Positions 21,139 through 47,870 of a stretch of DNA of 49,899 bases are shown here, piece by piece (position 1 is the first letter of the stretch; the number at the start of each line of letters is the position of its first letter). Below the pieces are notes generated by a model. That model made no database searches and was not told the origin of the DNA. It saw nothing but the letters and a program-made list of their open reading frames with translations. The translations under genes were made by a program, and so were the position numbers. This DNA is from an uncultured Alphaproteobacteria bacterium. Lineage in GTDB: Bacteria; Pseudomonadota; Alphaproteobacteria; MPNO01; UBA830. Where the stretch lies: positions 1 to 49,899 of the forward strand of contig CAJWUK010000004.1 in assembly GCA_913047365.1 (NCBI GenBank). The letters are read 5' to 3'.

Positions 21139-22281
21139 ATGGCCTATATCGACGCGGATTCGCACGTCTACGAAGTCGAGGAAACCTGGGATTACCTGCC
21201 GAAAAAATACAGGGACAGACGCCCCGTCGCGGTAACGATATCGCCAAAGGATGCGCCCTACATGGGGGTCGACAACTCCTTCTGGCTGGTTGACGGCAAG
21301 GCGATGCAGTGGACTTGGGGTCCCGGAACCATCCAGATCGGTTGCCCGCTGACATCGGTTCATGCCGGCATGAAGGAATTTTCGGTTGGTAACCAGTCGC
21401 TGATGGACGTGCCAGCCCGACTGGCGGACATGGACCGCGCCGGGGTGGACGTGCAGGTGATTTATCCGACACTGCTTTTCGCGCCCATGACCGATGACGA
21501 CGATTTTCAGGCGGCGCTGGAAATCAGCTACAACAAATGGATTGAGGAACGCTGTTCCGAAGCGCCCGGCCGCCTGAAATGGTCGGCATCGCTGCCGCTG
21601 CGCAATCCGAAAATGGCGGAAAAAGAAGTCTTCCGCGTTAAGGATGCTGGGGCGGTCAGCCTGATGTGTTACGGGACCGTGAACGACACCATGCTGCACC
21701 ACCCCAAATTCGATCGCGTCTGGGCGGCTGCCGCGGAATGCAACCTGCCGATTGCCATCCATGTCGGCTGGCCGGGACCCTTGCGCCAGATGTGCGACGA
21801 GCATTCGTCCTCTCTGAACGTATCCTTTACGCTGCCGTTGCTGATCGGTTTCTATTCCTTCGTCGGCGGCGGCGTCCTCGACCGGCACCCCAAGCTTCGG
21901 TCCATTTTTCTGGAAGGCGGGGCAGGATGGATCCCTTGGTATCTGGAACGGATGGATCACTATTACCCGGTGGCTGAATTCTTTCGGGGATCCTTCGGCT
22001 TAGAACCGATCACGTCGAAAAATCCGGAAAGCTATATGGATCGCATATTCACGACCTGCGAAGCGGGCGAACGCCTGTTGCCGCAGGTGATCGATTATCT
22101 GGGCGAAGACAACATCATGGTGTCGGAGGACATGCCACATCTGGAGGCGCGCGAGGGCTCGGGCGATGACCTGTCCGCCCGCCGCGATATATCCAAGCGC
22201 CAGAGGGAGAAGATCCTGTTCGACAACCCGTCTAAATTCTATGGCATCAAGGTCAAAAAGAAGAAGGTGAAAAAGAAGTGA
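21139..22281 (+). CDS. Amidohydrolase family protein (amidohydrolase_2 / ACMSD-like)
   Basis: A 380-residue TIM-barrel metal enzyme. The first metal site reads YIDADSHVYE; a His ligand follows in AIHVGWPG, then a conserved LEGGAGWIPWYLERMD. The late acidic site is SEDMPHLE, matching the usual S-D-x-P-H motif. This branch includes 2-amino-3-carboxymuconate semialdehyde decarboxylase and other non-hydrolytic decarboxylases or hydrolases of aromatic breakdown products. The C-terminus ends in a Lys-rich tail (KKKKVKKK). It is followed after 13 bases by an SDR gene on the same strand, so the two are probably one operon. The substrate is unknown. Confidence 0.87.
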   Translation: MAYIDADSHVYEVEETWDYLPKKYRDRRPVAVTISPKDAPYMGVDNSFWLVDGKAMQWTWGPGTIQIGCPLTSVHAGMKEFSVGNQSLMDVPARLADMDRAGVDVQVIYPTLLFAPMTDDDDFQAALEISYNKWIEERCSEAPGRLKWSASLPLRNPKMAEKEVFRVKDAGAVSLMCYGTVNDTMLHHPKFDRVWAAAAECNLPIAIHVGWPGPLRQMCDEHSSSLNVSFTLPLLIGFYSFVGGGVLDRHPKLRSIFLEGGAGWIPWYLERMDHYYPVAEFFRGSFGLEPITSKNPESYMDRIFTTCEAGERLLPQVIDYLGEDNIMVSEDMPHLEAREGSGDDLSARRDISKRQREKILFDNPSKFYGIKVKKKKVKKK

Positions 22282-22294
22282 CTGGCGGGCGGTC

Positions 22295-23062
22295 ATGACA
22301 CCGAACCATCCGACAACGGGCGTCGCTTTTATCACCGGCGCCGGCGGCGGTATCGGCGGGGCGACGGCGGAGCGGTTGGCCGCGGGCGGCGTGTCGGTGG
22401 CGGTCACCGATTATCGCCAGGATTTGGCTGACGAAGTAGTGGCCCGCATTCGGGAAAACGGGGGAACGGCCAAGGCGTATGCCCTTGATGTTACCGAAGC
22501 CGCTGAGGTGAAAAATATCATCAGTGTGGTGGAAGAGACACTGGGGCCCATTGATCAACTGGTCAACACCGCTGGTATATTCCAGTGGGCGCCCGCTGAA
22601 GACATCACCGATCAGGACTTCGAGGCCATGTTCCGGGTGCACGTATTCGGCATGCATACCGTCTGCCGGAATATCCTCACCGGAATGCAGCAGCGGGGTG
22701 CCGGCGCAATCGCCAACGTGACGTCTATCCACGCCATACGCGGCCAATCTCTCACGGCGCACTACTCTGCTGCGAAGGGGGCAATACTGGCCTATACGAA
22801 GTCGCTGGCGCGGGAAAAATCGCCACTGGGAATCCGGGTCAATGCGGTCGCACCGGGGCCCATCGATACACCGCTCTGGCGCGGTGGCATGGCGCAGGAA
22901 GACCTGGAACAGAAGATGACGGAGCGGTCCAAGGTGATCCCGCTGGACCGTCTGGGTACGGCGGATGAGGTGGCTGCCGGGATCGTCTTCCTGTTATCGC
23001 CCGCCGCCAGCTATCTGACCGGCCACATTATGACCATCGACGGCGGAGAAGTGATGAATTGA
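22295..23062 (+). CDS. Short-chain dehydrogenase/reductase
   Basis: A 255-residue classical SDR. It has the Rossmann motif TGAGGGIG (about residues 14-21), NTAG in place of the common NNAG, the catalytic Ser in NVTSIHA, and YSAAKGA with Tyr and Lys. Asp after the second strand (VAVTD) hints at NAD preference. It probably oxidises an alcohol or reduces a ketone in the same pathway as the amidohydrolase upstream. Its end lies 4 bases from the convergent SDR gene. Confidence 0.9.
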   Translation: MTPNHPTTGVAFITGAGGGIGGATAERLAAGGVSVAVTDYRQDLADEVVARIRENGGTAKAYALDVTEAAEVKNIISVVEETLGPIDQLVNTAGIFQWAPAEDITDQDFEAMFRVHVFGMHTVCRNILTGMQQRGAGAIANVTSIHAIRGQSLTAHYSAAKGAILAYTKSLAREKSPLGIRVNAVAPGPIDTPLWRGGMAQEDLEQKMTERSKVIPLDRLGTADEVAAGIVFLLSPAASYLTGHIMTIDGGEVMN

Positions 23063-23066
23063 CGGT

Positions 23067-23834
23067 CTAATGCACCGTCTGCCCCCCGTCGACGACAATC
23101 GAAGCGCCGTGGACGTAGGACGCAGCGTCGGACGCCAGAAAGGCGATAACGTTGGCAATCTCGTCGCACTCAGCAAGACGGCCCAGCAGTGCAAGCTCTT
23201 CGACGATGCTGCCGTCGACCATGCCTGAATCGATATAGTTCTTAACCCGGGGTGAGAGCGTCGCGCCGGGGCAGACGCCGTTGACGCGAATGTTCTCACG
23301 GCCGTAATCGACCGCTAGTTGCCGGGTCAGAGACAGCACACCGCCCTTGGCTGCACAGTAAACCGGCATTTCCGGGTGACCGATGATCCCGAAAGTGGAC
23401 GCGACATTGACGATGGATCCGCCCCCGTCTGCTTTGCGCAGCATAGGCAGGAACGCCTTGCACATGTAGTAAACGCTGGACAGATCGATCCCGATGATCC
23501 GGTGCCAGTCGTCTTCCTCCAGTTCTTCCAGTTTTTTGACGAAATTGGTGCCCGCATTGTTCACAACCGCTTTGACGCGATCGTGTTTTGCGCCAACCGC
23601 CGCCGCCAATGCGTCCACTTGCGATTTGTCCGATACGTCGGTGACGTGGCCTTCGCAGGAAGCACCCATGTTGCCCAAAATCTTTTCGGTTTCGCGGACG
23701 TTTTCTTCGGTCTTGCTAACCACGATGACGTGGGCGCCCAGCTCGGCGAGCGCCTCGCAAGTTGATCGTCCGATACCCTGGCCGCCACCGGTCACCACAA
23801 CCGGGGCGCTCTCGAATTTCAGTTGGTTCAGCAT
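23067..23834 (-). CDS. Short-chain dehydrogenase/reductase, last gene of LLM operon
   Basis: A 255-residue classical SDR with TGGGQGIG at the N-terminus, VNNAGTNF, catalytic Ser in NVASTFG, and YCAAKGG. It is preceded by AGGAAA and starts 9 bases after LLM gene A, so it is almost certainly co-transcribed with the two monooxygenases, the alpha/beta hydrolase and the crotonase. A dehydrogenase at this point suits oxidation of an alcohol released by monooxygenation or hydrolysis. It is not a close copy of the convergent SDR at 22295, judging by the different motif surroundings. Confidence 0.9.
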   Translation of the reverse strand: MLNQLKFESAPVVVTGGGQGIGRSTCEALAELGAHVIVVSKTEENVRETEKILGNMGASCEGHVTDVSDKSQVDALAAAVGAKHDRVKAVVNNAGTNFVKKLEELEEDDWHRIIGIDLSSVYYMCKAFLPMLRKADGGGSIVNVASTFGIIGHPEMPVYCAAKGGVLSLTRQLAVDYGRENIRVNGVCPGATLSPRVKNYIDSGMVDGSIVEELALLGRLAECDEIANVIAFLASDAASYVHGASIVVDGGQTVH

Positions 23835-23843
23835 CTGGTTTTC

Positions 23844-25037
23844 CTATTCGGCAGCGGCAGCGGACAGTTCGAAGCCCGCGTAATGATTTTCGTCGAGCGC
23901 CTGCAGGGCTGGCACCACTTCCGCGCCTAGCAGGCGCAGGTTCTTCTCTGTCAAATCGGCGGGCAGGGTGCCGAATTGAGGCATTATCAACACGTGTTCG
24001 AACCCGGCCTGACGGTGACGTTCGATCAGGGTGTCGCGTACCGTATCCGGGCTGCCCACGACGATAACGCCACGCTGCATCAGATCTTCCACCTTCTGGC
24101 CGCCTCGCAGCGTCGCCTTGTGGGCGAATATCTTTTTCATGGATGACGCCGTCATGTAGCCCGGCGGTACGAACATCGACTGCGATATTTTGGGCAGGAA
24201 GGTGTTGAACAGGGATTCGATATGCGGCCGCACTTCCTCCATCGCCTGCTCGTCCGTTTCCGCACAGTACACCGGCACGCTCCAGGCTATCTGGCCAGAA
24301 GATGCCGTATAGCCGTAGTTCTGCTCCGCCACCGACCGATACATGTTCAGATAGCGCAACACGCTTTCGAAGGCTGAATACGCCTGCAGGTAAACGTATT
24401 TCCGGTCCGGATGCGCGGCCCATTCAATGGTTTCGGTCGATCCCTGGGATGGGCACCAGATCGGCGGGTGCGGATCCTGATAGGGCCGCGGCCACATATT
24501 CACGTACTCGAAGTGATAGTGCTTGCCTTCAAACGCAAACGGACCCGTCTCGGTCCAGGCGCGGACCACCAGATCGTGCGCCTCGATATGGCGTTCCAGG
24601 GAATAGGCCGGGTTCACCCCCATGGAGAAATATTCGCAGCCCACGCCACGTACCATGCCGGTAATCAGCCGACCGCCGGTGATGTTGTCGATCATCGCGT
24701 GTTCTTCCGCGAGCGTCAGCGGGTGTTCGCGGAGCGCAAAGGCGTTGCCCAGGATCGCGATCTTGCATTTCTCGGTGTTGCGGGCCAACGCCGCCGCCAT
24801 CACCACGGGCGACGGCATCAGCCCATAGGCATTCTGGTGATGTTCGTTGACGCTGATCCCGTCAAAGCCTACTTCAGCGGCCAGTTCCAGTTCATCCAGG
24901 TAGCGGTTGTACAATTCGTGCCCGATTTTGGGATCGAAATAGCTGTTGGGCAGCTTCAGCCACACTGAGTTGTGCTCTTCCGCATAGCTCATATCGAGAG
25001 CCCCGTAGGGCATTAGGTGAAACGCGAAAACTTTCAT
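23844..25037 (-). CDS. LLM-class flavin-dependent monooxygenase A
   Basis: A 397-residue bacterial-luciferase-like protein. It opens MKVFAFHLMPYGALDM, with VNEHHQNAYG, then AILGNAFALREHPLTLAEE, GRLITGMVRG and IWCPSQGSTETIEWAA, all hallmarks of the luciferase fold that binds reduced FMN or F420. Members hydroxylate, desulfonate or perform Baeyer-Villiger oxidations with reduced flavin from a partner reductase. It is a clear paralogue of the adjacent LLM gene B, nearly identical in the central block. No flavin reductase gene was seen in the window. AGGAAG precedes the ATG. Confidence 0.92.
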   Translation of the reverse strand: MKVFAFHLMPYGALDMSYAEEHNSVWLKLPNSYFDPKIGHELYNRYLDELELAAEVGFDGISVNEHHQNAYGLMPSPVVMAAALARNTEKCKIAILGNAFALREHPLTLAEEHAMIDNITGGRLITGMVRGVGCEYFSMGVNPAYSLERHIEAHDLVVRAWTETGPFAFEGKHYHFEYVNMWPRPYQDPHPPIWCPSQGSTETIEWAAHPDRKYVYLQAYSAFESVLRYLNMYRSVAEQNYGYTASSGQIAWSVPVYCAETDEQAMEEVRPHIESLFNTFLPKISQSMFVPPGYMTASSMKKIFAHKATLRGGQKVEDLMQRGVIVVGSPDTVRDTLIERHRQAGFEHVLIMPQFGTLPADLTEKNLRLLGAEVVPALQALDENHYAGFELSAAAAE

Positions 25038-25118
25038 GAAACGGCTTCCTGTGGAACGGGCGGTGCGGCGACGAAAGACATGTCGTCATCCACCGTTATG
25101 CAGCGCAAGCGGTGCACC

Positions 25119-26309
25119 TTATTCGGCGGCCGCCTGCGCCGGCTCGAACCCGCGATATTCGTTGTCGCTCAGTGGCTGAATCGCGGGGAGAACTTCTTCC
25201 GCGAACAGGCGGATATTTCGTTCGGTCTTATCGGCGGGCAGGGTCCCGAAATGGAGCAGGGCAACGAAGGTACCGAAGCCCAGCACTTGATGGCATTCGA
25301 TGAGCTTTTTGCGGACGGTTTCAGGGCTGCCAACAAGGACGACTCCGTTTTCCATCAGGGTCTCCATCTTCGCCCCGCCCGTGATGTTGCGTTTGTGGGC
25401 GGCGACCCGCTTGTAGGATTGCATCGACATGTATCCCGGCGGGAACAGCTGTTCGAACGGCAGGTACAGGAACTTGTTGAACAGCGCCTCCATATGTTCG
25501 GTCGCTTCTTCAACGGCTTGTTCGTCGGTGTCGGCGATATAGACCGGCGCTGTCCAGCCGATCTGGTCGGACGATGCATCGTAACCGTATTGCGATGCAG
25601 CTACTTCGCGGTACTGGTCAAGGAATTTGCAGACATTGGTGAATGGGCTGTAATTCTGGGCATAGACGTATTTTCGGTCCGGATGTGCCGCCCATTCAAT
25701 GGTTTCGGTCGACCCTAGCGAGGGACACCAGATCGGCGGGTGTGGGTCCTGATAGGGGCGTGGCCACAAATTCACGTATTCGAAGTGGTAGTGTTTGCCT
25801 TCGAAGGCGAATGGCCCTGTTTCGGTCCAAGCCCGAACGACCAGATCGTGCGCCTCCATGTGCCGTTCGTGGCTGAGCGTCGGGTTGGCCGCAAGCGAAT
25901 AGAATTCCGCGCCGATACCGCGCACGAAACCCGTGATCAGCCGCCCTGCGGTGATGCAGTCGATCATCGCGTGCTCCTCGGCGAGCGTCAGTGGGTGTTC
26001 ACGCAAGGCAAAAGCATTGCCCAGGATGGCAAGCTTGCATTTCTCGGTCCGCCGGGCGAGCGACGACGCCATTACCACCGGTGACGGCATCAGACCGTAT
26101 GCGTTCTGATGATGTTCGTTCACGGCCACCCCATCGAAACCGACTTCCGCCGCCAGTTCCAGCTCGTCCAGGTACCGATTGTACAGCTCGTGGCCGATTT
26201 TCGGGTCGTATAGCGAGTTAGGCAGTGTAATCCATGCGGAGGGGTGCTTGTCACGCTCCGACATGTCGAGCGATGCGTAAGGCATCAGGTGGAACATAAA
26301 GGCTTTCAT
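25119..26309 (-). CDS. LLM-class flavin-dependent monooxygenase B
   Basis: A 396-residue paralogue of the next gene downstream, sharing HELYNRYLDELELAAEVGFD, AYGLMPSPVVMA, REHPLTLAEEHAMID and EGKHYHFEYV word for word. The ends and the region around residues 230-330 differ. ATG 26309 (MKAFMFHLMPYASLDM) matches the paralogue's start; the ATG at 26387 is rejected because it would overlap the upstream hydrolase gene. Two adjacent, equally long LLM paralogues recall the LuxA/LuxB heterodimer. Whether these pair, or act on successive substrates, is unknown. Confidence 0.92.
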   Translation of the reverse strand: MKAFMFHLMPYASLDMSERDKHPSAWITLPNSLYDPKIGHELYNRYLDELELAAEVGFDGVAVNEHHQNAYGLMPSPVVMASSLARRTEKCKLAILGNAFALREHPLTLAEEHAMIDCITAGRLITGFVRGIGAEFYSLAANPTLSHERHMEAHDLVVRAWTETGPFAFEGKHYHFEYVNLWPRPYQDPHPPIWCPSLGSTETIEWAAHPDRKYVYAQNYSPFTNVCKFLDQYREVAASQYGYDASSDQIGWTAPVYIADTDEQAVEEATEHMEALFNKFLYLPFEQLFPPGYMSMQSYKRVAAHKRNITGGAKMETLMENGVVLVGSPETVRKKLIECHQVLGFGTFVALLHFGTLPADKTERNIRLFAEEVLPAIQPLSDNEYRGFEPAQAAAE

Positions 26310-26343
26310 CGCGTCCCTCCCGTCATAGAACGGCGTCTGCCGG

Positions 26344-27129
26344 TCAGGCGGCTTTTGACTGCAGGAACCCCGAAACGGCTTCGACAAAGGGTTCCGACTG
26401 TTCGATGTGTGGCAGGTGCCCCGCCTTTTCGATCATGGTCACTTCAGAACCTGCAATTATTTTGCCGAATTCCGCAGCGTAGGCCGGATCGACGATCTTG
26501 TCGGTGTCACCCCAGATCACGTGGGTTGGTACTGTGATGCGGTGCAGCCATTTGCGTAGGTTTGGATTGAAAAGACGCGGTTGCCAGCCGAGGCGCGCCG
26601 TCGCTACCCGGTTACGAATTTGTATATCCAACTGCTCTTCGGTCAGCTCCATATTCAAGATGTTGTCTGCGTATGATTGGTCAACGAAAATCTCACGCAC
26701 CAGATCGTCGGGATCCATCATGAAGATATCGGCGATGGGCTTTCCCGCGATGCGAATACCTGCCGCACCGACAAGTGTCAGGCTTTTCAGCCGTGTGCAG
26801 TTCCGCACCGCGATTTCCATCGCCAGCCAGCCGCCAAGCGAATTGCCTACCAGATGGACGCCTTCCAGATTCATCTGATCGAGGAAATCCAGATAGAACA
26901 TGGCGAGATCTTCCATCCCGTCTAGCCACTCCGGTTCGTCAGACAGACCATAGGTCGGATGGTCCGGCACCATCAGGTCATGTGTTTCGGACAGGGCCTG
27001 GAAAGTCGGTATCCAGCCGGCGACGCCGCTGGCACCGTGCAGGAATAACATCGGTTCGCCCGACCCGCCCCGGCGCAGATACATGCCCGTTCCCCTAATG
27101 TCGATTTTGCTTTCGGTGCAGTCAGCCAT
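26344..27129 (-). CDS. Alpha/beta hydrolase (meta-cleavage-product hydrolase-like)
   Basis: A 261-residue hydrolase. The oxyanion motif is LFLHGASG, the nucleophile elbow LVGNSLGGWLAM, an acid lies in VIWGDTDKIV, and the catalytic His is in EKAGHLPHIEQ. The layout matches carbon-carbon hydrolases and lactonases of aromatic catabolism (MhpC/BphD group) and general esterases. ATG 27129 follows GGAGAAAACGG and starts 13 bases after the crotonase stop. In this operon it could open a lactone made by a Baeyer-Villiger LLM enzyme or cleave a C-C bond; both are inference. Confidence 0.88.
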   Translation of the reverse strand: MADCTESKIDIRGTGMYLRRGGSGEPMLFLHGASGVAGWIPTFQALSETHDLMVPDHPTYGLSDEPEWLDGMEDLAMFYLDFLDQMNLEGVHLVGNSLGGWLAMEIAVRNCTRLKSLTLVGAAGIRIAGKPIADIFMMDPDDLVREIFVDQSYADNILNMELTEEQLDIQIRNRVATARLGWQPRLFNPNLRKWLHRITVPTHVIWGDTDKIVDPAYAAEFGKIIAGSEVTMIEKAGHLPHIEQSEPFVEAVSGFLQSKAA

Positions 27130-27142
27130 CCCGTTTTCTCCG

Positions 27143-27979
27143 TTACTTCTTTGCGTTTTCATGCCCGCCGAGGCCGGGCTTGTATTTCTTGTCGAGGAAA
27201 TCGCCGATTCCTTCTTCCCGGAATGCATTGGCCTGCCGCGCCGTGTGCTGCGATTGCAATGACGAGGCATAATCCATGGCAACATCCCATTCCATGTCCA
27301 TGGAATTGCGGTAAATCTCCCGTGTAGCCTGAAGGGCGGACGGATCCTTGTCGGCGATTTCACGCGCGAGCGCCATCACGTCATCGCGCAGCTTATCCCT
27401 AGGAATGGCGTAATTCACGAGCCCGATATCGGCGGCGATCTGTCCGGTCATCGGCCGGCCGGTCAGGGAATACAGCATGTAGTCCCGCGGGCGCAGCAGG
27501 TTACCCATGGATTTGCCGACGCTGCCGCCGGGGAACATTTTGAAATTGATCTCGCTGAGCCCCATCTTGGCGTCTTCTGCAGCGACCGCCAAGTCGCATC
27601 CTTCAACGATGGTGAATGCGCCGCCAAAACAATGGCCGTTGACCATGGCGATGGTGGGTTTGGGAAACAGTCGCAAGGTCCGGCCACGCCATTCTACGGC
27701 GACGCGATGGGCACGGTCGTATTCAGCCGGCTTGTCCTGCAGTTCAATGAAGAATTCTTTCAAATCCATGCCGGCACAGAAGGATTCCCCGGCCCCTGTA
27801 ATAACCAGAACCCGGCATCGATCTTCGTTTCGCAGACGTTCAAGCGCGTCGGTGATTTCCTCACCCAATGTCGGGTTCATCGCGTTGCGTTTTTCCGGTC
27901 GGTTCAGTGTCAGAAGGCATACGCCATCGTCGAATTCGACAAGCAGCGTTTCGTAGTCATATCTCTCTGAGTCGCCCAC
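27143..27979 (-). CDS. Crotonase, hydroxycinnamoyl-CoA hydratase/lyase-like with altered active site
   Basis: A 278-residue enoyl-CoA hydratase superfamily protein. NRPEKRNAMNPTL, ITGAGESFCAGMDLKEFF, PTIAMVNGHCFGGAF, GLSEINF and the tail FLDKKYKPGL align by eye with p-hydroxycinnamoyl-CoA hydratase/lyase (HCHL, vanillin- or 4-hydroxybenzaldehyde-forming). The catalytic Glu is kept (E143). From memory of the Pseudomonas enzyme, however, Ser123 is Thr, Tyr75 aligns with Phe, and Tyr239 aligns with Ser. The Tyr pair holds the substrate's para-hydroxyl, so the substrate probably lacks one. It starts at GTG 27979 and is the first gene of the minus-strand operon, divergent from marR. Confidence 0.85.
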   Translation of the reverse strand: MGDSERYDYETLLVEFDDGVCLLTLNRPEKRNAMNPTLGEEITDALERLRNEDRCRVLVITGAGESFCAGMDLKEFFIELQDKPAEYDRAHRVAVEWRGRTLRLFPKPTIAMVNGHCFGGAFTIVEGCDLAVAAEDAKMGLSEINFKMFPGGSVGKSMGNLLRPRDYMLYSLTGRPMTGQIAADIGLVNYAIPRDKLRDDVMALAREIADKDPSALQATREIYRNSMDMEWDVAMDYASSLQSQHTARQANAFREEGIGDFLDKKYKPGLGGHENAKK

Positions 27980-28000
27980 TGATTGGCCCCTGTCATTTTT

Positions 28001-28014
28001 GTTAGCTTGCTAAC
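28001..28014. promoter_or_regulatory. Candidate MarR operator
   Basis: GTTAGC-TT-GCTAAC is a perfect inverted repeat of 6-base arms; the flanks extend the symmetry to 9-base arms with one mismatch (27998-28017). It sits 21 bases upstream of the crotonase GTG, in the 112-base gap shared with marR. The form TTAGC-N2-GCTAA is the kind of compact AT-edged palindrome bound by MarR dimers, and the location lets one dimer control both directions. Binding itself is inferred. Confidence 0.65.
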
Positions 28015-28091
28015 GAAGTGTCCCGCCCCACCGGACCGGAGTCAAGCGCAAGGCGCTTGCCCGAAGCATCCCGGGCGTGTAAATCCGGCGC

Positions 28092-28535
28092 ATGAACAAC
28101 AACGATTATTTCGATCCCGAAGACACGATCGGCTTTCTGCTCTGGGACGCAAACCGGGCAATGAACCGGGAATTTTCCGATCGTATCGCCCGGCAAGGTG
28201 TGTCGCTTGGTCTGTGGCCGTTTCTTCGTGCCCTTTGGGATGGCGATGGGATCACCCAGCGGGAATTGTCGGAGAAAGTTCGCATGAAGGGTCCGACCAC
28301 GGTAGCCGCACTGAACAAGCTGGAGGACCGGGGGCTGGTCCGTCGTGAAGGCGATAAAAAGGATGCGCGTAAGATCAACGTTTTCCTGACGCCTGATGGC
28401 CGCAAGGTTTACCGTAAGGTCATCCCGGAGGTTGAGGCCGTCAATACCCAGTGCCTAACCGACCTTTCTGCGGAAGAGCAGGCGGAATTCAAAAACATGA
28501 TCCGGCGGATCCGCAACAACATCACCGCCGCATAG
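28092..28535 (+). CDS. MarR family transcriptional regulator
   Basis: A 147-residue winged-helix protein. The recognition region reads GITQRELSEKVRMKGPTTVAALNKLEDRGLV, presented in two parts: helix-turn-helix about residues 55-85, then the wing RREGDKKDARKINVFLT with the family's D-x-R tip. MarR proteins of this kind repress catabolic genes and release DNA on binding a phenolic or its CoA thioester, as CouR does in hydroxycinnamate pathways. The gene is divergent from the crotonase operon, shares a palindromic operator with it and is followed by two exporters. The inducer is unknown. Confidence 0.9.
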   Translation: MNNNDYFDPEDTIGFLLWDANRAMNREFSDRIARQGVSLGLWPFLRALWDGDGITQRELSEKVRMKGPTTVAALNKLEDRGLVRREGDKKDARKINVFLTPDGRKVYRKVIPEVEAVNTQCLTDLSAEEQAEFKNMIRRIRNNITAA

Positions 28536-28581
28536 AAGGGAACCAGATGGATGGGTCTGGATTTCCCGGCAGGAGTTCTAA

Positions 28582-29787
28582 GTGAGCCGCGGCCGATACT
28601 TATTCCTGGCCGGCCTGCTTGGGCTGCTGCCCATGTTGCTGCCGTTGTCGGTCGATGGCTCGCTGGCCCTGGTACCCGATATCGCTGCTTATTTCGCCAC
28701 CGATATCGGATCGGTCCAGTTGACGTTGACGGCTGTTGTGCTGGGTATCGCGGTCGGTCAATTGTTTTATGGGCCAGTTTCTGACCGTTTCGGGCGAAAG
28801 CCGGTAATCATTTTTGGGGTTGCCTGCTACGCGTTGGCTGGGACCGGCTGTGCTAACGCGCCTTCGATTGAGTGGTTAATATTTTTCCGGTTTTTGCAGG
28901 GATTTTTCGCCTGTTCCGGTATCATCGTCGCCCGTGCCGTTATTCGAGATATGTTCGATCGCGAAGCAGGCGCACGTTTGTTCGCTCTGATGATGGGCAT
29001 TCACGGCATCATGCCTACGCTGGCCCCGGGGGTCAGCGGTTGGATGACCCAGACCTTCGGCTGGCAGTCCGTATTCTGGGTAATGGTCGGGTTTGGTGTC
29101 TTTACCGGAATTTCGGTCTGGCTTGGATTACCCGAAACTAGCAAGTCTCGGATAGTCAGCGCCACCCGACCGGCCGAATTGCTGGCCAACTATCGCACGA
29201 TATTTCGAAACCGGGCATTCTTATCCTATGCCACCTGCGCATGCTTCATGTATGGGGCACTGATGGCATATTTCGCGGGCGCGCCGGTGGGTTTCATCAA
29301 ATATCTCGGGCTGGTACCGATTGAATTTGGCATTGCCATGGCGGTGCCCATGGTGACCTATGTCGTCACACAGATCGCTGTCGCGCGCCTAGCGCCCAGG
29401 ATCGGTCTGGATCTGATGATCCGGATCGGTGTCTTTTTCGCCGCCATCGCAGGAATCGGAATGTTGGCATTCGTGCAACTGGATATGATCAATATTTACA
29501 CCTTGATCGGACCGGTTGTTCTGGTGCTCGGATCGCTTGCGTTCATTACCCCGAGTACGACGGCCGGCGCTTTGTCGCCGTTCGCGGAAATGGCAGGCGC
29601 CGCGTCTTCGCTTCTCGGCTTCATTCAATTTCTGGCCGCCGCTGCGGCGACAGCCCTGGTCGGACTGCTGAATGACGGCACCCCGGGGCCTATGGCCGCG
29701 GTCATTTGCGTCTGCTGTCTGGGTTCGCTGATCGCCTATCTGGTTCTGGTTTTGCCACTCCGGCGCGTTGATCAGGCCGATCACTGA
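28582..29787 (+). CDS. MFS exporter, Bcr/CflA type (first of tandem pair)
   Basis: A 401-residue inner-membrane protein with about 12 hydrophobic helices. The Bcr/CflA pattern is clear: VDGSLALVPDIAAYF in helix 1, then GQLFYGPVSDRFGRKPVII (the MFS loop 2-3 motif with D-R-x-G-R-K-P). The drug:H+ antiporter-1 motif C follows near LAPGVSGWM. It starts at GTG 28582, 9 bases after AGGAG. It likely exports a toxic acid, aldehyde or drug. It lies 46 bases after marR and 9 bases before a second similar exporter, so marR and both exporters probably form one unit. Confidence 0.9.
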   Translation: MSRGRYLFLAGLLGLLPMLLPLSVDGSLALVPDIAAYFATDIGSVQLTLTAVVLGIAVGQLFYGPVSDRFGRKPVIIFGVACYALAGTGCANAPSIEWLIFFRFLQGFFACSGIIVARAVIRDMFDREAGARLFALMMGIHGIMPTLAPGVSGWMTQTFGWQSVFWVMVGFGVFTGISVWLGLPETSKSRIVSATRPAELLANYRTIFRNRAFLSYATCACFMYGALMAYFAGAPVGFIKYLGLVPIEFGIAMAVPMVTYVVTQIAVARLAPRIGLDLMIRIGVFFAAIAGIGMLAFVQLDMINIYTLIGPVVLVLGSLAFITPSTTAGALSPFAEMAGAASSLLGFIQFLAAAAATALVGLLNDGTPGPMAAVICVCCLGSLIAYLVLVLPLRRVDQADH

Positions 29788-29796
29788 TCAGAAACG

Positions 29797-30987
29797 ATGA
29801 AGACATTCGACAATTCCGGGTTCGCCGCGCTCCTTGCACTAACCACCGTGATGAGCGCTGCCGGAATCGACGGGGTTCTTCCTCTGATGCCGGCCATCGG
29901 TGCTGCGTTCTCAGCCGAACGGGAGGCGGTTCAATTGACACTAACCATGTTCATGCTCGGCATCGCGGTGGGACAGCTTGTGCACGGACCAATTTCCGAC
30001 AGGTTCGGCCGCAAACCGGCGATCATAAGCGGCCTGTTGGTGACGTCTGTCGCCACGGCGGGGTGCGCGCTGTCGACGTCGATAGAGACGCTGTCTGTTT
30101 TCCGCTTCGTACACGGGTTTGCGGCATCAAGCGGCTGGCTGCTCGCCCGCGCCGTCATTCGAGACCGGCACGAACGGGACGATGCCGCCCGCGTCATGTC
30201 GCTCATGATGATTTTTCACAGCGCCGCACCCCTTCTTGCGCCCATCATCGGCGCGGCGTTGACGGTTGCCTACGGGTGGGAAGCGATGTTCGTTTTCCTG
30301 TCGGTGTATTCGGTATCCGTCGCAATTTTCTTTGCCGTAGTCTTTAAAGAAACAATCGCCGCGAAAGCGTGCGATGCATTGAGCCCGGGTCCCATCCTCC
30401 GGAATTTTGCGGAGATTGCCCGGGGGCGGTCATTCTGGGCGTATACCGCCTGCGCAACCGCGTCCTATGGCATCCTTTTCGCGTTTCTCAGCGCGTCCGC
30501 CGATATTGTCATTGTTCATCTGGGTCAGTCGGAACTTCAATACAGCTATATGTTTTCTGGCGTGATGGTCGGATCGGTCTCCGGAATGCTGATGAGCGCG
30601 CGTCTTGTCGAGAAGTTCGGAGGCGACCGGCTACTGCGGTGGGGCGTTATATTGGCCGCGGTGTTCGGAGCCATTCTCGCCGCGCTCGCCTGGGTGCGGG
30701 TGGATCACTGGTTCGCCGTCATTGGACCGATGGCGTTATGCATGGTCGCTTTCGCGCTGATTTTCCCGCAATCCATTGCCGGTGTGCTGCAGCCGTTCCC
30801 CCACGTCGCCGGTGCCGCGTCGTCACTGGTCGGGTTTATCCAGCAGCTTGTCGGAGCTCTGACCGGTATTGCAGTCGCGGCATTGTCGGACGGATCGCAA
30901 ACTTCGATGGCCACGGGCGTGTTGCTGTGGTCGCTGTTCGGACTTGTCGCCTATTTTCTGGCTGTCCGGAATAACCGGACCATTTAG
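29797..30987 (+). CDS. MFS exporter, Bcr/CflA type (second of tandem pair)
   Basis: A 396-residue 12-helix transporter in the same subfamily as the gene before it. It has IDGVLPLMPAIGAAF in helix 1 and GQLVHGPISDRFGRKPAII in loop 2-3. The two proteins are clearly paralogous but distant, with most identity in the motifs. Tandem retention suggests different substrates or, less likely for MFS, a working pair. It begins 9 bases after the first exporter's stop and is followed by purB after 45 bases. Confidence 0.9.
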   Translation: MKTFDNSGFAALLALTTVMSAAGIDGVLPLMPAIGAAFSAEREAVQLTLTMFMLGIAVGQLVHGPISDRFGRKPAIISGLLVTSVATAGCALSTSIETLSVFRFVHGFAASSGWLLARAVIRDRHERDDAARVMSLMMIFHSAAPLLAPIIGAALTVAYGWEAMFVFLSVYSVSVAIFFAVVFKETIAAKACDALSPGPILRNFAEIARGRSFWAYTACATASYGILFAFLSASADIVIVHLGQSELQYSYMFSGVMVGSVSGMLMSARLVEKFGGDRLLRWGVILAAVFGAILAALAWVRVDHWFAVIGPMALCMVAFALIFPQSIAGVLQPFPHVAGAASSLVGFIQQLVGALTGIAVAALSDGSQTSMATGVLLWSLFGLVAYFLAVRNNRTI

Positions 30988-38046: not shown

Positions 38047-38090
38047 CTGCGCGATTGACCACCGCTTTTCGCCGGTCCTATAAATATTGC

Positions 38091-38936
38091 ATGGCCGGTT
38101 TTACGCTTCACAAGCTGCACGATTCCTTCGGCGCCGAAATTCGCGGGCTGGATTTGTCTGCGCCCATGGATCCGGAAACCTGCGAGGCCGTTACCCAGGC
38201 CTGGCTCGATCATCTTATCCTTCTGTTTCGAGATCAGGATCTAACGCCCGAAGCCCAGCGGAAATTCTGCGAACAGTTCGGCCCCCTTGGCGGAAGGCTG
38301 CGCAAGGCGGAAGACAGACCGGAAGGCCGTGACGCCGAAAACATCATGCTGGTGACGAATGTTCGGAAAAACGGCGTGCCCATCGGCTCATTGCCGGACG
38401 GGGAAATGTTCTTCCATCACGATAAATGCTACGCACCCGAACCCGATTGGGGGACGATGCTGTATGCGATGGAGGTTACGCGCGTTGGCGGCCACACGCT
38501 GTTCGCTAATATGTACGATGCCTGGGAGACCCTGCCAAATGATCTGAAAGACCGGATCGAGGGCCGGCAGGTACTGCACATCTATAAATATTTGCCCACC
38601 GAACGTGTCGACCTGAAAGAAGATATCGACAAATACGATCACCAGTGGCAGCCGATCGTCATCACGCACCCGAAGACGGGCCGCCGCGCGTTGTATGTGA
38701 ACGAACTGATGTCTGCGATGATCGAAGGGTATGAAGAAGACGAGAGTCGGGAAATCATCGACCGGCTTGTCGAGAACGTAAAATCCGCCGACGTAATCTA
38801 TGACCACAAATGGCAGCGCGGCGATCTGGTGATGTGGGACAACTGGTGCACAATGCATGCCCGGACCGATTTCCCGCGCGACCAGACCCGTATGCTTCGC
38901 CGATACACCATATCAGGGCAGGCGCTAAGCGCCTGA
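38091..38936 (+). CDS. TauD/TfdA-family Fe(II)/2-oxoglutarate dioxygenase
   Basis: A 281-residue non-haem iron dioxygenase. It opens FTLHKLHDSFGAEIRGLDLS, typical of TauD relatives. The iron site is H-x-D in FFHHDKCY plus a distal His in CTMHARTDF, and the 2-oxoglutarate Arg is in RTDFPRDQTRMLRRY. The family hydroxylates taurine, 2,4-D, sulfate esters and other acids, releasing the product after decarboxylating 2-oxoglutarate. ATG 38091 is preferred over TTG 38055. The substrate cannot be inferred; no transporter of the taurine type is adjacent. Confidence 0.9.
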   Translation: MAGFTLHKLHDSFGAEIRGLDLSAPMDPETCEAVTQAWLDHLILLFRDQDLTPEAQRKFCEQFGPLGGRLRKAEDRPEGRDAENIMLVTNVRKNGVPIGSLPDGEMFFHHDKCYAPEPDWGTMLYAMEVTRVGGHTLFANMYDAWETLPNDLKDRIEGRQVLHIYKYLPTERVDLKEDIDKYDHQWQPIVITHPKTGRRALYVNELMSAMIEGYEEDESREIIDRLVENVKSADVIYDHKWQRGDLVMWDNWCTMHARTDFPRDQTRMLRRYTISGQALSA

Positions 38937-38980
38937 CCCACATAGGGTTTCACGATTTATTTAAGCCGGAAACTCGCTTT

Positions 38981-39901
38981 ATGAACGGGCGAAGCGCGAT
39001 TGAGTCCCGTCTGTCCGGACCGGTCCGGGGCATCTTGTGGATGACCCTCGGCTGTATTTTCTACGCGCTGATCTATCTAGTTGTCCGGGGCCTGTCGGAG
39101 ACGTTTCCAGTCAATCAGATCGTGTTCTTCCGGGCGGTCCTGGGGTCGCTGTTCATGCTGCCATGGCTGTTTTCAACCGGTCTTGGCGCTTTAAGGACTA
39201 GCCGCATGCCGCTGTATCTCTGGCGAATGCTGTTCAGCTATCTGGGCGCGGTGGCCTGGATGTACGGTATCGCCGGTATGCCGCTAGCAGATGCTAACGC
39301 ACTGATGTTCACCATGCCGCTTTTCACCGTCATCATGGCTGCCTTCTGGCTGGCGGAGCGTCCAGGTCTCCATCGCTGGGCGGCGACCGTGGCGGGGTTT
39401 GCTGGGGCGCTGATCATTCTGCGGCCTGGCATGATAGAGATTTCGATGGCAGCAATTGCCACGCTGATCGCAGCGGCACTTTTTTCCGCGGCCCTGATCG
39501 GCAGCAAGATGCTGACGGATACCGAAAACCCCAACGCAATGGTGTTCTATCTCTACACGCTGATGATACCGCCTGCTGCGATCGGCGCATTGTTCGGTTG
39601 GGTCAATCCCGGTCTGGGCGATATATGGCTATTGATCGCACTTGGCATATGTACCGTGGGTGCACAACAATCGCAGACGCGCGCGTTCAGGGTCGCGCCC
39701 GCCAGCCTGGTCGTTATCGTCAACTATGTGCAGCTTCCCCTGATCGCATTGGCAGCATGGTGGGTTTTCGGGCAGTCGACCGATCTTTGGACCTGGATTG
39801 GCGCTGCAGTAATCTGTGCCAGTACCTACTATGTCAGCTACCGAGAGGGACGGCATGCCCGCCAGTCGGCGGCCCAGCCGGGGAAAGGAGACCGATCATG
39901 A
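38981..39901 (+). CDS. EamA/DMT-family transporter
   Basis: A 306-residue inner-membrane protein with about 10 helices in two EamA repeats: GILWMTLGCIFYALIYLVVRG starts the first (split here at residue 20), and MAAIATLIAAALFSAALIG the second. The signature FFRAVLGSLFMLPWL and ADANALMFTMPLF are typical of drug/metabolite exporters. ATG 38981 is chosen; upstream in-frame starts would overlap the dioxygenase gene. Its stop overlaps the glyoxalase start (ATGA at 39898-39901), so both are translationally coupled. Confidence 0.9.
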   Translation: MNGRSAIESRLSGPVRGILWMTLGCIFYALIYLVVRGLSETFPVNQIVFFRAVLGSLFMLPWLFSTGLGALRTSRMPLYLWRMLFSYLGAVAWMYGIAGMPLADANALMFTMPLFTVIMAAFWLAERPGLHRWAATVAGFAGALIILRPGMIEISMAAIATLIAAALFSAALIGSKMLTDTENPNAMVFYLYTLMIPPAAIGALFGWVNPGLGDIWLLIALGICTVGAQQSQTRAFRVAPASLVVIVNYVQLPLIALAAWWVFGQSTDLWTWIGAAVICASTYYVSYREGRHARQSAAQPGKGDRS

Positions 39902-40344
39902 ACGAGCAAACACGCGCCGGCGACTGGGAGGTCGTCAAGAATACCAAACCGCGAATCCGGCATACGATGCTGCGTGTGAAAAATCTCGATAAATCGCTCG
40001 ATTTTTACACCCGACTGTTCGGGATGACGCTGTTCCGCCGAAAGGACAACGAGGGCGGTAAATATACTGTTGCGTTCGTAGGGTACGGCGATGAGAACGC
40101 GGAACCCGCGATCGAATTGACCTATAACTGGGGCAGGGACGGCGATTATGACAAGGGTGAAGGCTTTGGGCACATCGCTATCGGCGTACCCGACATTCAC
40201 GGTCTCTGCGAAAAACTGGAAGCCGAGGGAGTGGAAATACCGCGGCCACCGGGGCCGTTGAAACATGGCGGGCCCAACGCATCGATCATTGCCTTCGTCC
40301 GTGACCCCGACGGCTACACGATCGAGCTGGGAGAACGTGCCTAG
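39898..40344 (+). CDS. gloA: Lactoylglutathione lyase (glyoxalase I)
   Basis: A 148-residue VOC-fold enzyme converting the methylglyoxal-glutathione hemithioacetal to S-lactoylglutathione. The four metal ligands of glyoxalase I are in place: H22 (RHTMLRV), E73 (AIELTYNWG), H92 (GFGHIAIGV) and E143 (YTIELGER). It is preceded by GGAAAGGAG and overlaps the stop of the EamA gene by four bases. The length suits the Ni-dependent bacterial class, slightly extended at the N-terminus. Confidence 0.94.
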   Translation: MNEQTRAGDWEVVKNTKPRIRHTMLRVKNLDKSLDFYTRLFGMTLFRRKDNEGGKYTVAFVGYGDENAEPAIELTYNWGRDGDYDKGEGFGHIAIGVPDIHGLCEKLEAEGVEIPRPPGPLKHGGPNASIIAFVRDPDGYTIELGERA

Positions 40345-40365
40345 AGCCCTATAATATGATCCCGC

Positions 40366-40983
40366 TTAATCCTTCGCGGGAATGCCGCGATAGGCGTTAT
40401 CGCCCCAGAGTTCGTTCACGCGCTGATTGCGCCCGCAGTTCCAGCGGTAGAACCGGTAACGCGTCGGACTCTTCTTGTAATAATCCTGGTGATATCCCTC
40501 TGCCGGATAGAACCTGGCGGCTTTCTCGATGGGGGTGAAAATTTTCTGTCCCAGCTCTTTCATGGCGGCTTCTTTGGATGCCGCCGCGAGCTTTTGCTGT
40601 TCGTCGTTGTGCACGAACACGGCGGTCTGGTAGGGCACGCCCCGGTCGCAGAACTGCCCGCCCATATCCACCGGATCGACCGAATGCCAGAATACGTCCA
40701 ATAACTGCGCGTAGGTCACCTTCTTGGGATCGTAGGTGATCTGCAGGGCTTCGCGATGGCCGGTATTGCCGCGGGCCACCTGCTGGTAGGTCGGGTTCAG
40801 GGTCCTGCCGCCGGTGTAACCGGAAATGGTTTTCAGGACACCCGGTACCTTGTCGAAATCGGATTCGATGCACCAGAAACAGCCGCCCGCAAATGTCGCG
40901 ATCCGGGTTTCCTGGGCAACCACTGACGATGTCACGTTAAGAACAAAGGCGGCAGTGGCAAGAAGTGTTGAAAGAGGTTTCAT
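40366..40983 (-). CDS. msrA: Exported peptide methionine-S-sulfoxide reductase
   Basis: A 205-residue MsrA that repairs oxidised methionine. The catalytic motif GGCFWC has its nucleophile at C35. The body shows GYTGGRTLNPTYQQVARGNTG, with downstream GHREALQITYDP and VDPVDMGGQFCDRG. Late Cys residues (NCGRNQR) may act as resolving residues. Residues 1-23 (MKPLSTLLATAAFVLNVTSS VVAQ) form a signal peptide, so this copy should work in the periplasm. It is convergent with gloA, with 21 bases between stops, and divergent from an SDR gene. Confidence 0.94.
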   Translation of the reverse strand: MKPLSTLLATAAFVLNVTSSVVAQETRIATFAGGCFWCIESDFDKVPGVLKTISGYTGGRTLNPTYQQVARGNTGHREALQITYDPKKVTYAQLLDVFWHSVDPVDMGGQFCDRGVPYQTAVFVHNDEQQKLAAASKEAAMKELGQKIFTPIEKAARFYPAEGYHQDYYKKSPTRYRFYRWNCGRNQRVNELWGDNAYRGIPAKD

Positions 40984-41048
40984 TGGGCGATCCCCGACTA
41001 TTTTGTCTGGAATATGGGCGTATTTGCGAGGCGCTGCAGTAACATTGA

Positions 41049-41064
41049 TGTTATCCGTATAACA
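41049..41064. promoter_or_regulatory. Palindrome upstream of SDR gene
   Basis: TGTTAT-CCGT-ATAACA is a perfect inverted repeat with 6-base arms, 24 bases before the SDR start and in the gap shared with msrA. It could be an operator or the core of a promoter. AAGGGAGC serves as the ribosome site downstream. Confidence 0.4.
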
Positions 41065-41087
41065 AAACCAAATAAGGGAGCTTTTAG

Positions 41088-41840
41088 ATGGGGAAAGGTC
41101 ACCAGGACAAGATAGCCGTCATCACCGGTGCCGCCACTGGCATAGGGCAGCGATACGCTGTTCGACTGGCGGAAGAGGGGGTGGATATTGCGGTCGCCGA
41201 TATCGGTGATGCGGCGGAAACCGTTTCGCTTGTCGAAAAAGCCGGTCGGACCGCCCGCGGCTATCTCTGCGATGTGACGTCACCGGAAAGTGTTGCGGCC
41301 ATGGCTGAATCGGCGATGTCGGATTTCGGGCGTTGCGACATCCTGATCAACAATGCGGGCATCTATCCTAATGTGCCGTTCGAGGATATCTCGTTCGACG
41401 ACTGGCGGCGAGTTATGTCGATCAATCTCGACTCCCTGTTTCTGACGGCGAAGCAGTTCGTGCCCGGCATGAAGGAACGGGGCTGGGGTCGCATGGTGAA
41501 CGTATCTTCAAGTACGTTGGCCACACCGGTGACCGGTTACGTGCATTATGTTTCCAGCAAAGGCGGCGTCGTCGGCTTCACGCGTGCTCTTGCAAGCGAC
41601 TTGGCGCCGCACGGTATTACCGTCAACGCAGTATCACCTAGCCTGGTTCCCACCACGGGCACGATGTTAACGGAGCCACGCACGGAAGAGAGGTTCCAAA
41701 TGATTGCGAACTTTCAGGCGATCAAGCAGGTGCAGCAAGCGGACGATGTCGTCGGCACGGTCGCGTTCCTGACCAGCGACGACGCAACGTTCGTGACCGG
41801 GCAGACGATTTATGTGGATGGCGGCTGGGTGCGCGCCTGA
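41088..41840 (+). CDS. Short-chain dehydrogenase/reductase
   Basis: A 250-residue classical SDR with TGAATGIG at the cofactor site, INNAGIYPN, catalytic Ser in NVSSSTLAT, and YVSSKGG (Tyr, Lys). The Asp in IAVADIGD after strand 2 suggests NAD. Homologues act on sugars, steroids or small alcohols; the role here is unknown. It stands alone between msrA (divergent) and a convergent small open frame, with its own palindrome-bearing promoter region. Confidence 0.9.
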   Translation: MGKGHQDKIAVITGAATGIGQRYAVRLAEEGVDIAVADIGDAAETVSLVEKAGRTARGYLCDVTSPESVAAMAESAMSDFGRCDILINNAGIYPNVPFEDISFDDWRRVMSINLDSLFLTAKQFVPGMKERGWGRMVNVSSSTLATPVTGYVHYVSSKGGVVGFTRALASDLAPHGITVNAVSPSLVPTTGTMLTEPRTEERFQMIANFQAIKQVQQADDVVGTVAFLTSDDATFVTGQTIYVDGGWVRA

Positions 41841-41847
41841 TCAGGAT

Positions 41848-42060
41848 CTATTCCAGGGGAAGGATGGCGATCGAAATCGGTTCGGTCGGTGTAATAGTGT
41901 TCTGCTGTCCACCCTGAGCGCTCTGCAGCGCGGGCACCGGAATCCGGCCTGCCGGATCGGCGATCGCGGGTACTGTCGGAACGGTCGTCGGTTTGATGAA
42001 GGCAGCGACGCCTATCGCGATTGTGAGTATGGCGGTTACGACTGCGACAGCGCTCAGCAA
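41848..42060 (-). CDS. Small membrane protein, start uncertain
   Basis: A 70-residue frame from TTG 42060. It reads one membrane helix (SAVAVVTAILTIAIGVAAFI), then a Pro/Thr-rich tail ending PISIAILPLE. The frame stays open upstream to a TAG near 42153, with a natural-looking cytoplasmic stretch (DGEAPALLRTISNWKWEQ), yet has no ATG, GTG or TTG there. The real start may thus be non-standard, lost or miscalled. The family is not recognised. A topology with an N-terminal cytoplasmic segment of about 30 residues and a periplasmic tail is plausible. Confidence 0.4.
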   Translation of the reverse strand: MLSAVAVVTAILTIAIGVAAFIKPTTVPTVPAIADPAGRIPVPALQSAQGGQQNTITPTEPISIAILPLE

Positions 42061-42184
42061 ATGGGTGACGGGATGCGAAGAGGAGGACTGTTCCCATTTC
42101 CAATTTGAGATGGTTCGAAGAAGCGCCGGTGCTTCTCCATCCGTAAATTTCCCCTATACAGGCGTCCAGTAACCCCATCGGCTT

Positions 42185-42239
42185 GTAACGTCGCGCTAAT
42201 TCGCGTTACCTGCCTGCAACAAACGGGCAGGAGAAATCG
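42185..42239 (+). promoter_or_regulatory. Leader of ubiD-like gene with two inverted repeats, one covering the ribosome site
   Basis: The first repeat pairs GTAACG (42185-42190) with CGTTAC (42204-42209), with inner CGCG/CGCG symmetry around CTAATT. The second pairs CCTGCC (42209-42214) with GGCAGG (42226-42231), whose last bases are part of the ribosome site AGGAG (42229-42233). The first could be an operator; the second could hide the ribosome site in RNA. Confidence 0.4.
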
Positions 42240-47710: not shown

Positions 47711-47870
47711 TGCAGAAAATGCAATCCGCCGGGTCTTCGCGAAATGCAGGGGTATTGGTATAACGGGAAGTGATGAGGGTGGGGTCGCATAAGATGTGGA
47801 AGTTTCTTCCGTGGATGTTTCTGGCTTTTCTGATTTCGCCACCAATCCTGATACACCCCGCTAAAGTGTG

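Follow-up and report, generated by a model that had tools for sequence, protein, structure and literature searches.

A conserved MarR-linked operon combining a divergent HCHL-type crotonase with a luciferase-like monooxygenase and its paired hydrolase in an uncultured alphaproteobacterium

We analyzed an eight-gene system on a 49,899-nucleotide stretch of DNA from an uncultured Alphaproteobacteria bacterium (assembly GCA_913047365.1). This stretch, the window, is the whole of contig CAJWUK010000004.1 (C4 of genome G000 in our numbering; 3.03 Mb in 342 contigs, 84% complete). Five minus-strand genes encode, in order, a crotonase of the p-hydroxycinnamoyl-CoA hydratase/lyase (HCHL) type, an alpha/beta hydrolase (ABH), two luciferase-like monooxygenases (LLM B and LLM A) and a short-chain dehydrogenase/reductase (SDR); a MarR-family regulator and two major facilitator superfamily (MFS) transporters are divergent from them (Table 1). 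Judged from sequence, the five minus-strand genes form a conserved operon linked to MarR and to Bcr/CflA transporters. We give about an even chance to the reading that this operon is catabolic, repressed by MarR and induced by its substrate, and that it releases acetyl-CoA before an LLM inserts oxygen and the hydrolase cleaves the product. The substrate is probably a natural aromatic or ring-shaped compound. An earlier note, made from the sequence, had proposed an undescribed system. Its parts and the pairing of oxygenase with hydrolase are known; what appears new is the full combination with a divergent HCHL-type crotonase. A published pathway with this exact gene set was not found in the literature searched.

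The tight spacing described by the earlier note is present, with intergenic gaps of 13, 34, 81 and 9 bp from crotonase to SDR, as is the shared promoter region, a gap of 112 bp to MarR and two transporters that are both Bcr/CflA. A neighborhood search for the five-gene order showed that HCHL-ABH-LLM-SDR recurs in the same order of the Genome Taxonomy Database (GTDB) and in a Hyphomicrobiales genome outside it, so it is not a chance arrangement. HCHL-ABH-LLM-SDR was found in six other genomes of the GTDB order; the relatives' named records are alphaproteobacterial metagenome-assembled genomes (MAGs), several of them given as Defluviicoccus or UBA7314. Five genomes of one family (f3) have purB, one MFS gene and a MarR gene that diverges from HCHL-ABH-LLM-SDR; each carries only one LLM there. 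G001 has HCHL-ABH-LLM-amidohydrolase-SDR. Partial versions also occur. At the purB locus, G003 keeps MarR and HCHL-ABH, followed downstream of ABH by a short LLM B-like stretch that is probably truncated, with no SDR seen there. G004 keeps MarR and both MFS genes at that locus, with ABH and LLM A as the only enzymes, and an HCHL-clade gene was not found in its genome (86% complete). G009 has HCHL-SDR with MarR, an amidohydrolase and a second SDR, and carries an ABH-LLM pair on a separate contig. The Hyphomicrobiales MAG (locus L112) has HCHL, MarR, ABH, LLM and SDR, then a class III CoA-transferase (CaiB). MarR orthologues divergent from HCHL are 58-73% identical within the order, and matches of 47-50% adjoin HCHL operons elsewhere. 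With the order kept in relatives and parts missing in G003, G004 and G009, the neighborhood is therefore real but modular.

The divergent gap holds a putative promoter and operator for the crotonase operon: a -35 element, TTGACT (28045-28040), a 17-nt spacer and a weak -10 element, GACACT (28022-28017), followed by the palindrome GTTAGCAAGCTAAC at 28014-28001, whose TTAG-N4-CTAA core occupies 28002-28013. We compared the nine loci of the order in which MarR is still divergent: seven match the core exactly and two differ from it at one position, the central four bases vary, and TTGACA/T lies upstream of the palindrome in the compared loci. The bare palindrome is unremarkable by itself (35 of 100 window shuffles gave at least one match at one mismatch or fewer). 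The combined promoter and operator pattern has a single match in the genome, at this locus, and because of this uniqueness MarR looks like a local switch. A generic sigma-70 scan called no promoter at the crotonase operon, because the -10 element is weak; the cross-genome comparison supports the promoter instead. As to orthology with characterized CouR/FerR-type regulators of hydroxycinnamate catabolism, the best NCBIfam match of MarR was Saro_0803 (58.5 bits, cut-off 200), and in a PDB search HosA ranked best and PcaV lower.

The crotonase had been assigned to CoA-dependent chain cleavage. The family holds but the generic type does not, as the protein is of the HCHL type, which removes acetyl-CoA by retro-aldol cleavage. 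It scored 316.7 bits on NF006588, the p-hydroxycinnamoyl-CoA hydratase/lyase equivalog (cut-off 276), and the closest matches with solved structures are HCHL. We tabulated pocket residues, in the numbering of P. fluorescens HCHL, for the window protein, the nearest 37 clade loci and more distant HCHL-like proteins. The clade of the window crotonase is marked by F75, T/S123, E126, E143, F146 and F149; F75, E126, E143 and F146 are common to the window protein and all 37 clade members, F149 occurs in nearly all, and the catalytic Glu143 is present in every sequence compared. The clade signature is F146-[K/R/G]-x-F149, whereas the distant proteins have W146-G147-I148. Tyr75 is thus replaced throughout the clade, and Tyr239 is found in none of its members; Tyr239 is also missing from other HCHL-like proteins such as 6p5u. 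In HCHL these two tyrosines presumably contact the phenolic 4-hydroxyl. The residue comparison sets this HCHL-type crotonase apart in a clade of its own, whose pocket is altered. Compared with HCHL itself (NF006588; PDB 2j5i, 2vss, 6p5u, 7xwc), it is alike in passing the cut-off, in Glu143, in length and in the divergent MarR, a feature of some ferulate/coumarate operons. It differs in the residues above and in its ABH-LLM-SDR partners. Neighbors in the 37 loci, labeled by similarity to Pfam-checked references, include CoA ligase (20 loci), CoA-transferase (14), LLM (10) and ABH (9). Two further HCHL-type genes in this genome outscore the crotonase on NF006588. Separately, at locus L080 (G000:C126) an ABH-LLM-LLM-ABH set converges on a different HCHL-type gene, which scores above the cut-off, and on a subunit of an NDP-forming acyl-CoA ligase, an independent co-location of HCHL with LLM and hydrolase.

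LLM genes of the LLM B subfamily and this hydrolase are a near-obligate gene pair. The genome has 40 PF00296 matches. The nine LLM genes most like LLM B lie in six loci; a same-strand hydrolase is adjacent at five of these six loci and at none of the 30 other LLM genes. Across the class, 29 of 30 hydrolase relatives have a subfamily LLM within 1.5 kb (the set takes in loci from this genome and from the same order), and 41 of the 66 subfamily LLM genes across all fetched loci have a hydrolase neighbor; most of those without one belong to two clades. Most LLM-bearing plasmid records carry the pair (Neorhizobium, Mycobacterium, Rhodococcus, Bradyrhizobium, Agrobacterium), often with a flavin reductase. 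In Rhodococcus rhodochrous the pair is followed by catA, and in this genome the pair at L084 (G000:C147) adjoins the only intradiol dioxygenase found, together with an isochorismatase-family hydrolase and a ring-hydroxylating dioxygenase beta subunit. In Rhodococcus oxybenzonivorans, which degrades oxybenzone, an annotated LLM (29% identity) is accompanied by a flavin reductase, and no hydrolase directly adjoins it. The window hydrolase has the motif residues Ser (GNSLGG), Asp and His. The nucleophile of the paired hydrolases is mostly Ser and in three is Cys; the likely Cys enzymes are L112:11617-12387, L115:14580-15395 and L036 (GHCLGG, GHCAGG, GNCVGG).

A hydrolase beside nearly every member of the subfamily predicts an ester or lactone as the LLM product. 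Published precedent exists for this part of the system, so it can no longer be called undescribed. The cited sections of PMC9836352 describe adjoining genes of Sphingobium sp. AntQ-1 (sphantq_4473/4474) for an LLM and an alpha/beta hydrolase; anthraquinone induces both strongly, and they are read there as a type II Baeyer-Villiger monooxygenase (BVMO) and a lactone hydrolase. By description rather than by sequence, this adjacent, co-directional pair resembles ABH-LLM B in the window; HCHL, MarR and SDR are not reported alongside it in those sections. From Caenibius tardaugens, the sections cited of PMC12239570 describe an LLM (EGO55_13860) that converts progesterone to testosterone acetate, with no assigned reductase nearby. 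Type II BVMOs (3,6-diketocamphane monooxygenase, EGO55_13860) share with the window LLMs the luciferase-like fold, a two-component system and a flavin reductase encoded elsewhere, but no paired hydrolase is described for the steroid cluster in those sections. The best Foldseek matches of LLM B are RslO1 (7bip), luciferase (1luc) and 3,6-diketocamphane monooxygenase (5aec/4uwm). Because of the two precedents and this fold match, the best-supported reading of the LLM-hydrolase chemistry is, by analogy, a Baeyer-Villiger oxidation whose ester or lactone product is then hydrolyzed. Literature searches on LLM combined with HCHL, on gene expansion and on Defluviicoccus in sponges returned nothing useful. 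A broader parallel is SAR202, for which the parts of PMC5395668 cited here report an expansion of FMNO paralogs with a proposed role in oxidizing recalcitrant organic matter. Its genomes are likewise crowded with LLM paralogs, alongside expanded SDR and CaiB families; SAR202 belongs to another phylum, however, and no HCHL-ABH-LLM operon is described in those parts.

The twin LLMs emphasized by the earlier note are present here (139.5 and 135.7 bits on PF00296, gathering threshold 27.9; LLM A is 70% identical to LLM B) but are not intrinsic to the system, since most relatives run with one. LLM A groups with the G004 LLM (support 100/100), and LLM B with those of G001 and family f3. Hence LLM B corresponds by orthology to the one LLM that relatives carry in this operon, and an LLM A orthologue is kept in G004. 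Because the two fall in different well-supported groups, the twin appears to be ancient, one copy or the other having been lost afterwards, and we rejected a recent tandem duplication on the same grouping. Other twin LLM loci exist, and by analogy with luciferase it is possible that LLM A and LLM B form a heterodimer. Twin LLMs of the same subfamily without a hydrolase, conserved in two genomes, lie at L058:8820-15887 (G000:C3) and L057 (G003:C9), divergent from genes for a GTP cyclohydrolase II-like protein, DUF1688, uracil phosphoribosyltransferase and an FAD hydroxylase.

We propose the following route. MarR would sit on TTAG-N4-CTAA at the crotonase promoter until the substrate or an intermediate freed it. 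The starting substrate would be an aromatic or alicyclic carboxylic acid bearing a propenoyl-like side chain, and the transporters would carry this substrate or an intermediate. A class III CoA-transferase or CoA ligase encoded elsewhere would load CoA. The HCHL-type crotonase, going by its family, would hydrate the enoyl-CoA and split off acetyl-CoA in a retro-aldol step, so that an aldehyde or ketone remains. The LLM, supplied with reduced flavin mononucleotide (FMNH2) by a general flavin reductase, would then insert oxygen beside the carbonyl in a Baeyer-Villiger or Dakin-type reaction, and the hydrolase paired with it would cleave the resulting ester, formate ester or lactone. The SDR would oxidize an alcohol to the ketone used by the LLM, or process the product; its position is kept in relatives (55-78% identity) and its PDB relatives are alcohol and diol dehydrogenases. 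We agree with the earlier note that no CoA ligase or flavin reductase lies within the operon, but its exact reaction order and the exporters' role as a guard against a toxic intermediate were left unsupported. The CoA-transferase or CoA ligase beside the crotonase in relatives suggests the source of CoA activation. This genome has 22 CoA-ligase matches and, at locus L227 (G000:C47), a CaiB about 56-57% identical to the HCHL-partner CaiB of L112. Alongside the L227 gene are genes similar to those for a Rieske oxygenase, CoA ligase, amidohydrolase and citryl-CoA lyase, and the locus is a candidate for CoA activation.

Several points weigh against this route. LLM enzymes also perform C-S cleavage, aldehyde oxidation, hydroxylation and ring opening, and alkanesulfonate, dimethyl sulfone (DMSO2) and F420 enzymes scored almost equally in the Foldseek search. 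LLM B is about 22% identical to 4uwm and reached no curated LLM subfamily cut-off, so close BVMO kinship was not found. Model confidence, as predicted local distance difference test (pLDDT), was moderate for the LLM (75); at 40 the crotonase model was unusable, so the pocket claims come from alignment. The retro-aldol step may fail in a clade that lacks both of the tyrosines presumed to contact the phenol. The HCHL half and the ABH-LLM half seem able to work apart, because G004 keeps MarR and ABH-LLM without an HCHL-clade gene and the G009 locus has HCHL and SDR without ABH-LLM. Finally, the hydrolase profile used within the genome was seeded with hydrolases from the same loci; a single-sequence search, unseeded by other loci, picked out these hydrolases too. 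We think less likely a more specific version, in which an undescribed aerobic pathway joins a divergent HCHL-type retro-aldolase to a dedicated pair of LLM (Baeyer-Villiger or Dakin chemistry) and hydrolase, so that an acid is shortened by acetyl-CoA and then passes through an oxidative ester step, the LLM paralogs perhaps acting as a heterodimer. If true, a phenylpropanoid-like or terpenoid acid would be handled by an oxidative ester step and not by an aldehyde dehydrogenase.

Among the alternatives, ordinary ferulate or p-coumarate catabolism fares best, though we think it unlikely: a normal HCHL would yield vanillin or 4-hydroxybenzaldehyde under a CouR/FerR-like MarR, and the LLM pair would replace the aldehyde dehydrogenase. 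The NF006588 score, the HCHL structures as best PDB matches and the divergent MarR fit this explanation, as do Paraburkholderia clade members with a CoA ligase, a relative of aromatic-acid transporters and an aldehyde dehydrogenase. However, all clade members have F75, none has Tyr239, and the signature is of the FKxF type and not WGI; the operon has no Fcs-type ligase or aldehyde dehydrogenase, and two other HCHL-type genes of this genome score higher on NF006588. We lowered the plain HCHL reading because the pocket residues differ. It is rather unlikely that the LLM-hydrolase pair is instead a ring-opening module of the RutA/DszA kind, using flavin-N5 chemistry on amides, heterocycles or organosulfur compounds while the crotonase and SDR process the opened chain. 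The superfamily is common to RutA, DszA and RcaE, RutA pathways likewise employ an alpha/beta hydrolase, and the C3 twin LLMs lie divergent from the GTP cyclohydrolase II-like cluster; yet twins of that type lack the hydrolase, RutA and SsuD profile scores are weak, the operon has no RutB-type gene, and the genes linked to paired loci are intradiol dioxygenases. We judge equally improbable a detoxification operon directed against a natural product of plants, algae or sponges, with MarR and the two pumps as its core and enzymes that modify the compound without mineralizing it. MarR beside drug-type MFS pumps, the reduction of the G004 enzymes to ABH-LLM with MarR and MFS kept, and several relatives' isolate names that read as sponge metagenome bins speak for it, whereas HCHL implies CoA-dependent carbon recovery, clade members elsewhere have uptake transporters and beta-oxidation-like genes, and the Bcr/CflA family includes importers (the PunC and FslD models score here). 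Chance proximity of common families, although SDR, LLM and hydrolase genes are numerous in this genome, is very improbable and already contradicted by a gene order that is maintained between families and outside the GTDB order, the conserved operator and the 29-of-30 pairing.

Some uncultured bacteria carry massive expansions of LLM genes, whose substrates have long been a blank. The LLM-hydrolase pairing offers a genetic handle on this chemistry and a testable unit of two soluble enzymes and a flavin reductase. Screening for substrates can be narrowed, given the HCHL-clade crotonase and the one conserved operator, to acids able to form an enoyl-CoA and to release MarR from one known site.

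Table 1. Features of the operon and adjoining genes (window coordinates).
Feature	Coordinates	Strand	Basis
Crotonase-operon promoter/operator (putative)	28001..28045	-	Conservation in relatives
HCHL-type crotonase, 278 aa, GTG start, operon gene 1	27143..27979	-	NCBIfam NF006588; PDB 6p5u, 2j5i/2vss
Alpha/beta hydrolase (ABH), 261 aa	26344..27129	-	Pfam PF00561/PF12697
LLM B, luciferase-like monooxygenase, 396 aa	25119..26309	-	PF00296; tree; Foldseek
LLM A	23844..25037	-	PF00296; tree pairs it with the G004 LLM
SDR dehydrogenase, last operon gene	23067..23834	-	PF13561/PF00106
MarR-family regulator, presumed local repressor, divergent	28092..28535	+	PF12802/PF01047
MFS transporter 1, Bcr/CflA	28582..29787	+	TIGR00710, 257.5 bits (cut-off 200.9)
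MFS transporter 2, Bcr/CflA	29797..30987	+	TIGR00710, 267 bits (cut-off 200.9); synteny
PF04909 amidohydrolase, probable accessory gene	21139..22281	+	Pfam; synteny in G001 and G009
Second SDR, convergent with operon	22295..23062	+	Accompanies amidohydrolase in G001 and G009

We placed the ABH start at the ATG at 27129, where orthologues begin at the equivalent Met, and the LLM B start at the ATG at 26309, which makes a longer TTG open reading frame unnecessary. The single transporter of family f3 relatives stands at the place of MFS transporter 2. The amidohydrolase and second SDR (21139-23062) probably belong to the system too; the amidohydrolase sits inside the operon in G001, and its PDB relatives are PtmU3 and ACMSD. 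Elsewhere in the window, an LLM of another subfamily is followed on the same strand by a class III CoA-transferase (46652-49058), and 38055-43688 carries catabolic-looking genes for a TauD-type dioxygenase, a glyoxalase-family protein, an SDR and a UbiD-type decarboxylase.

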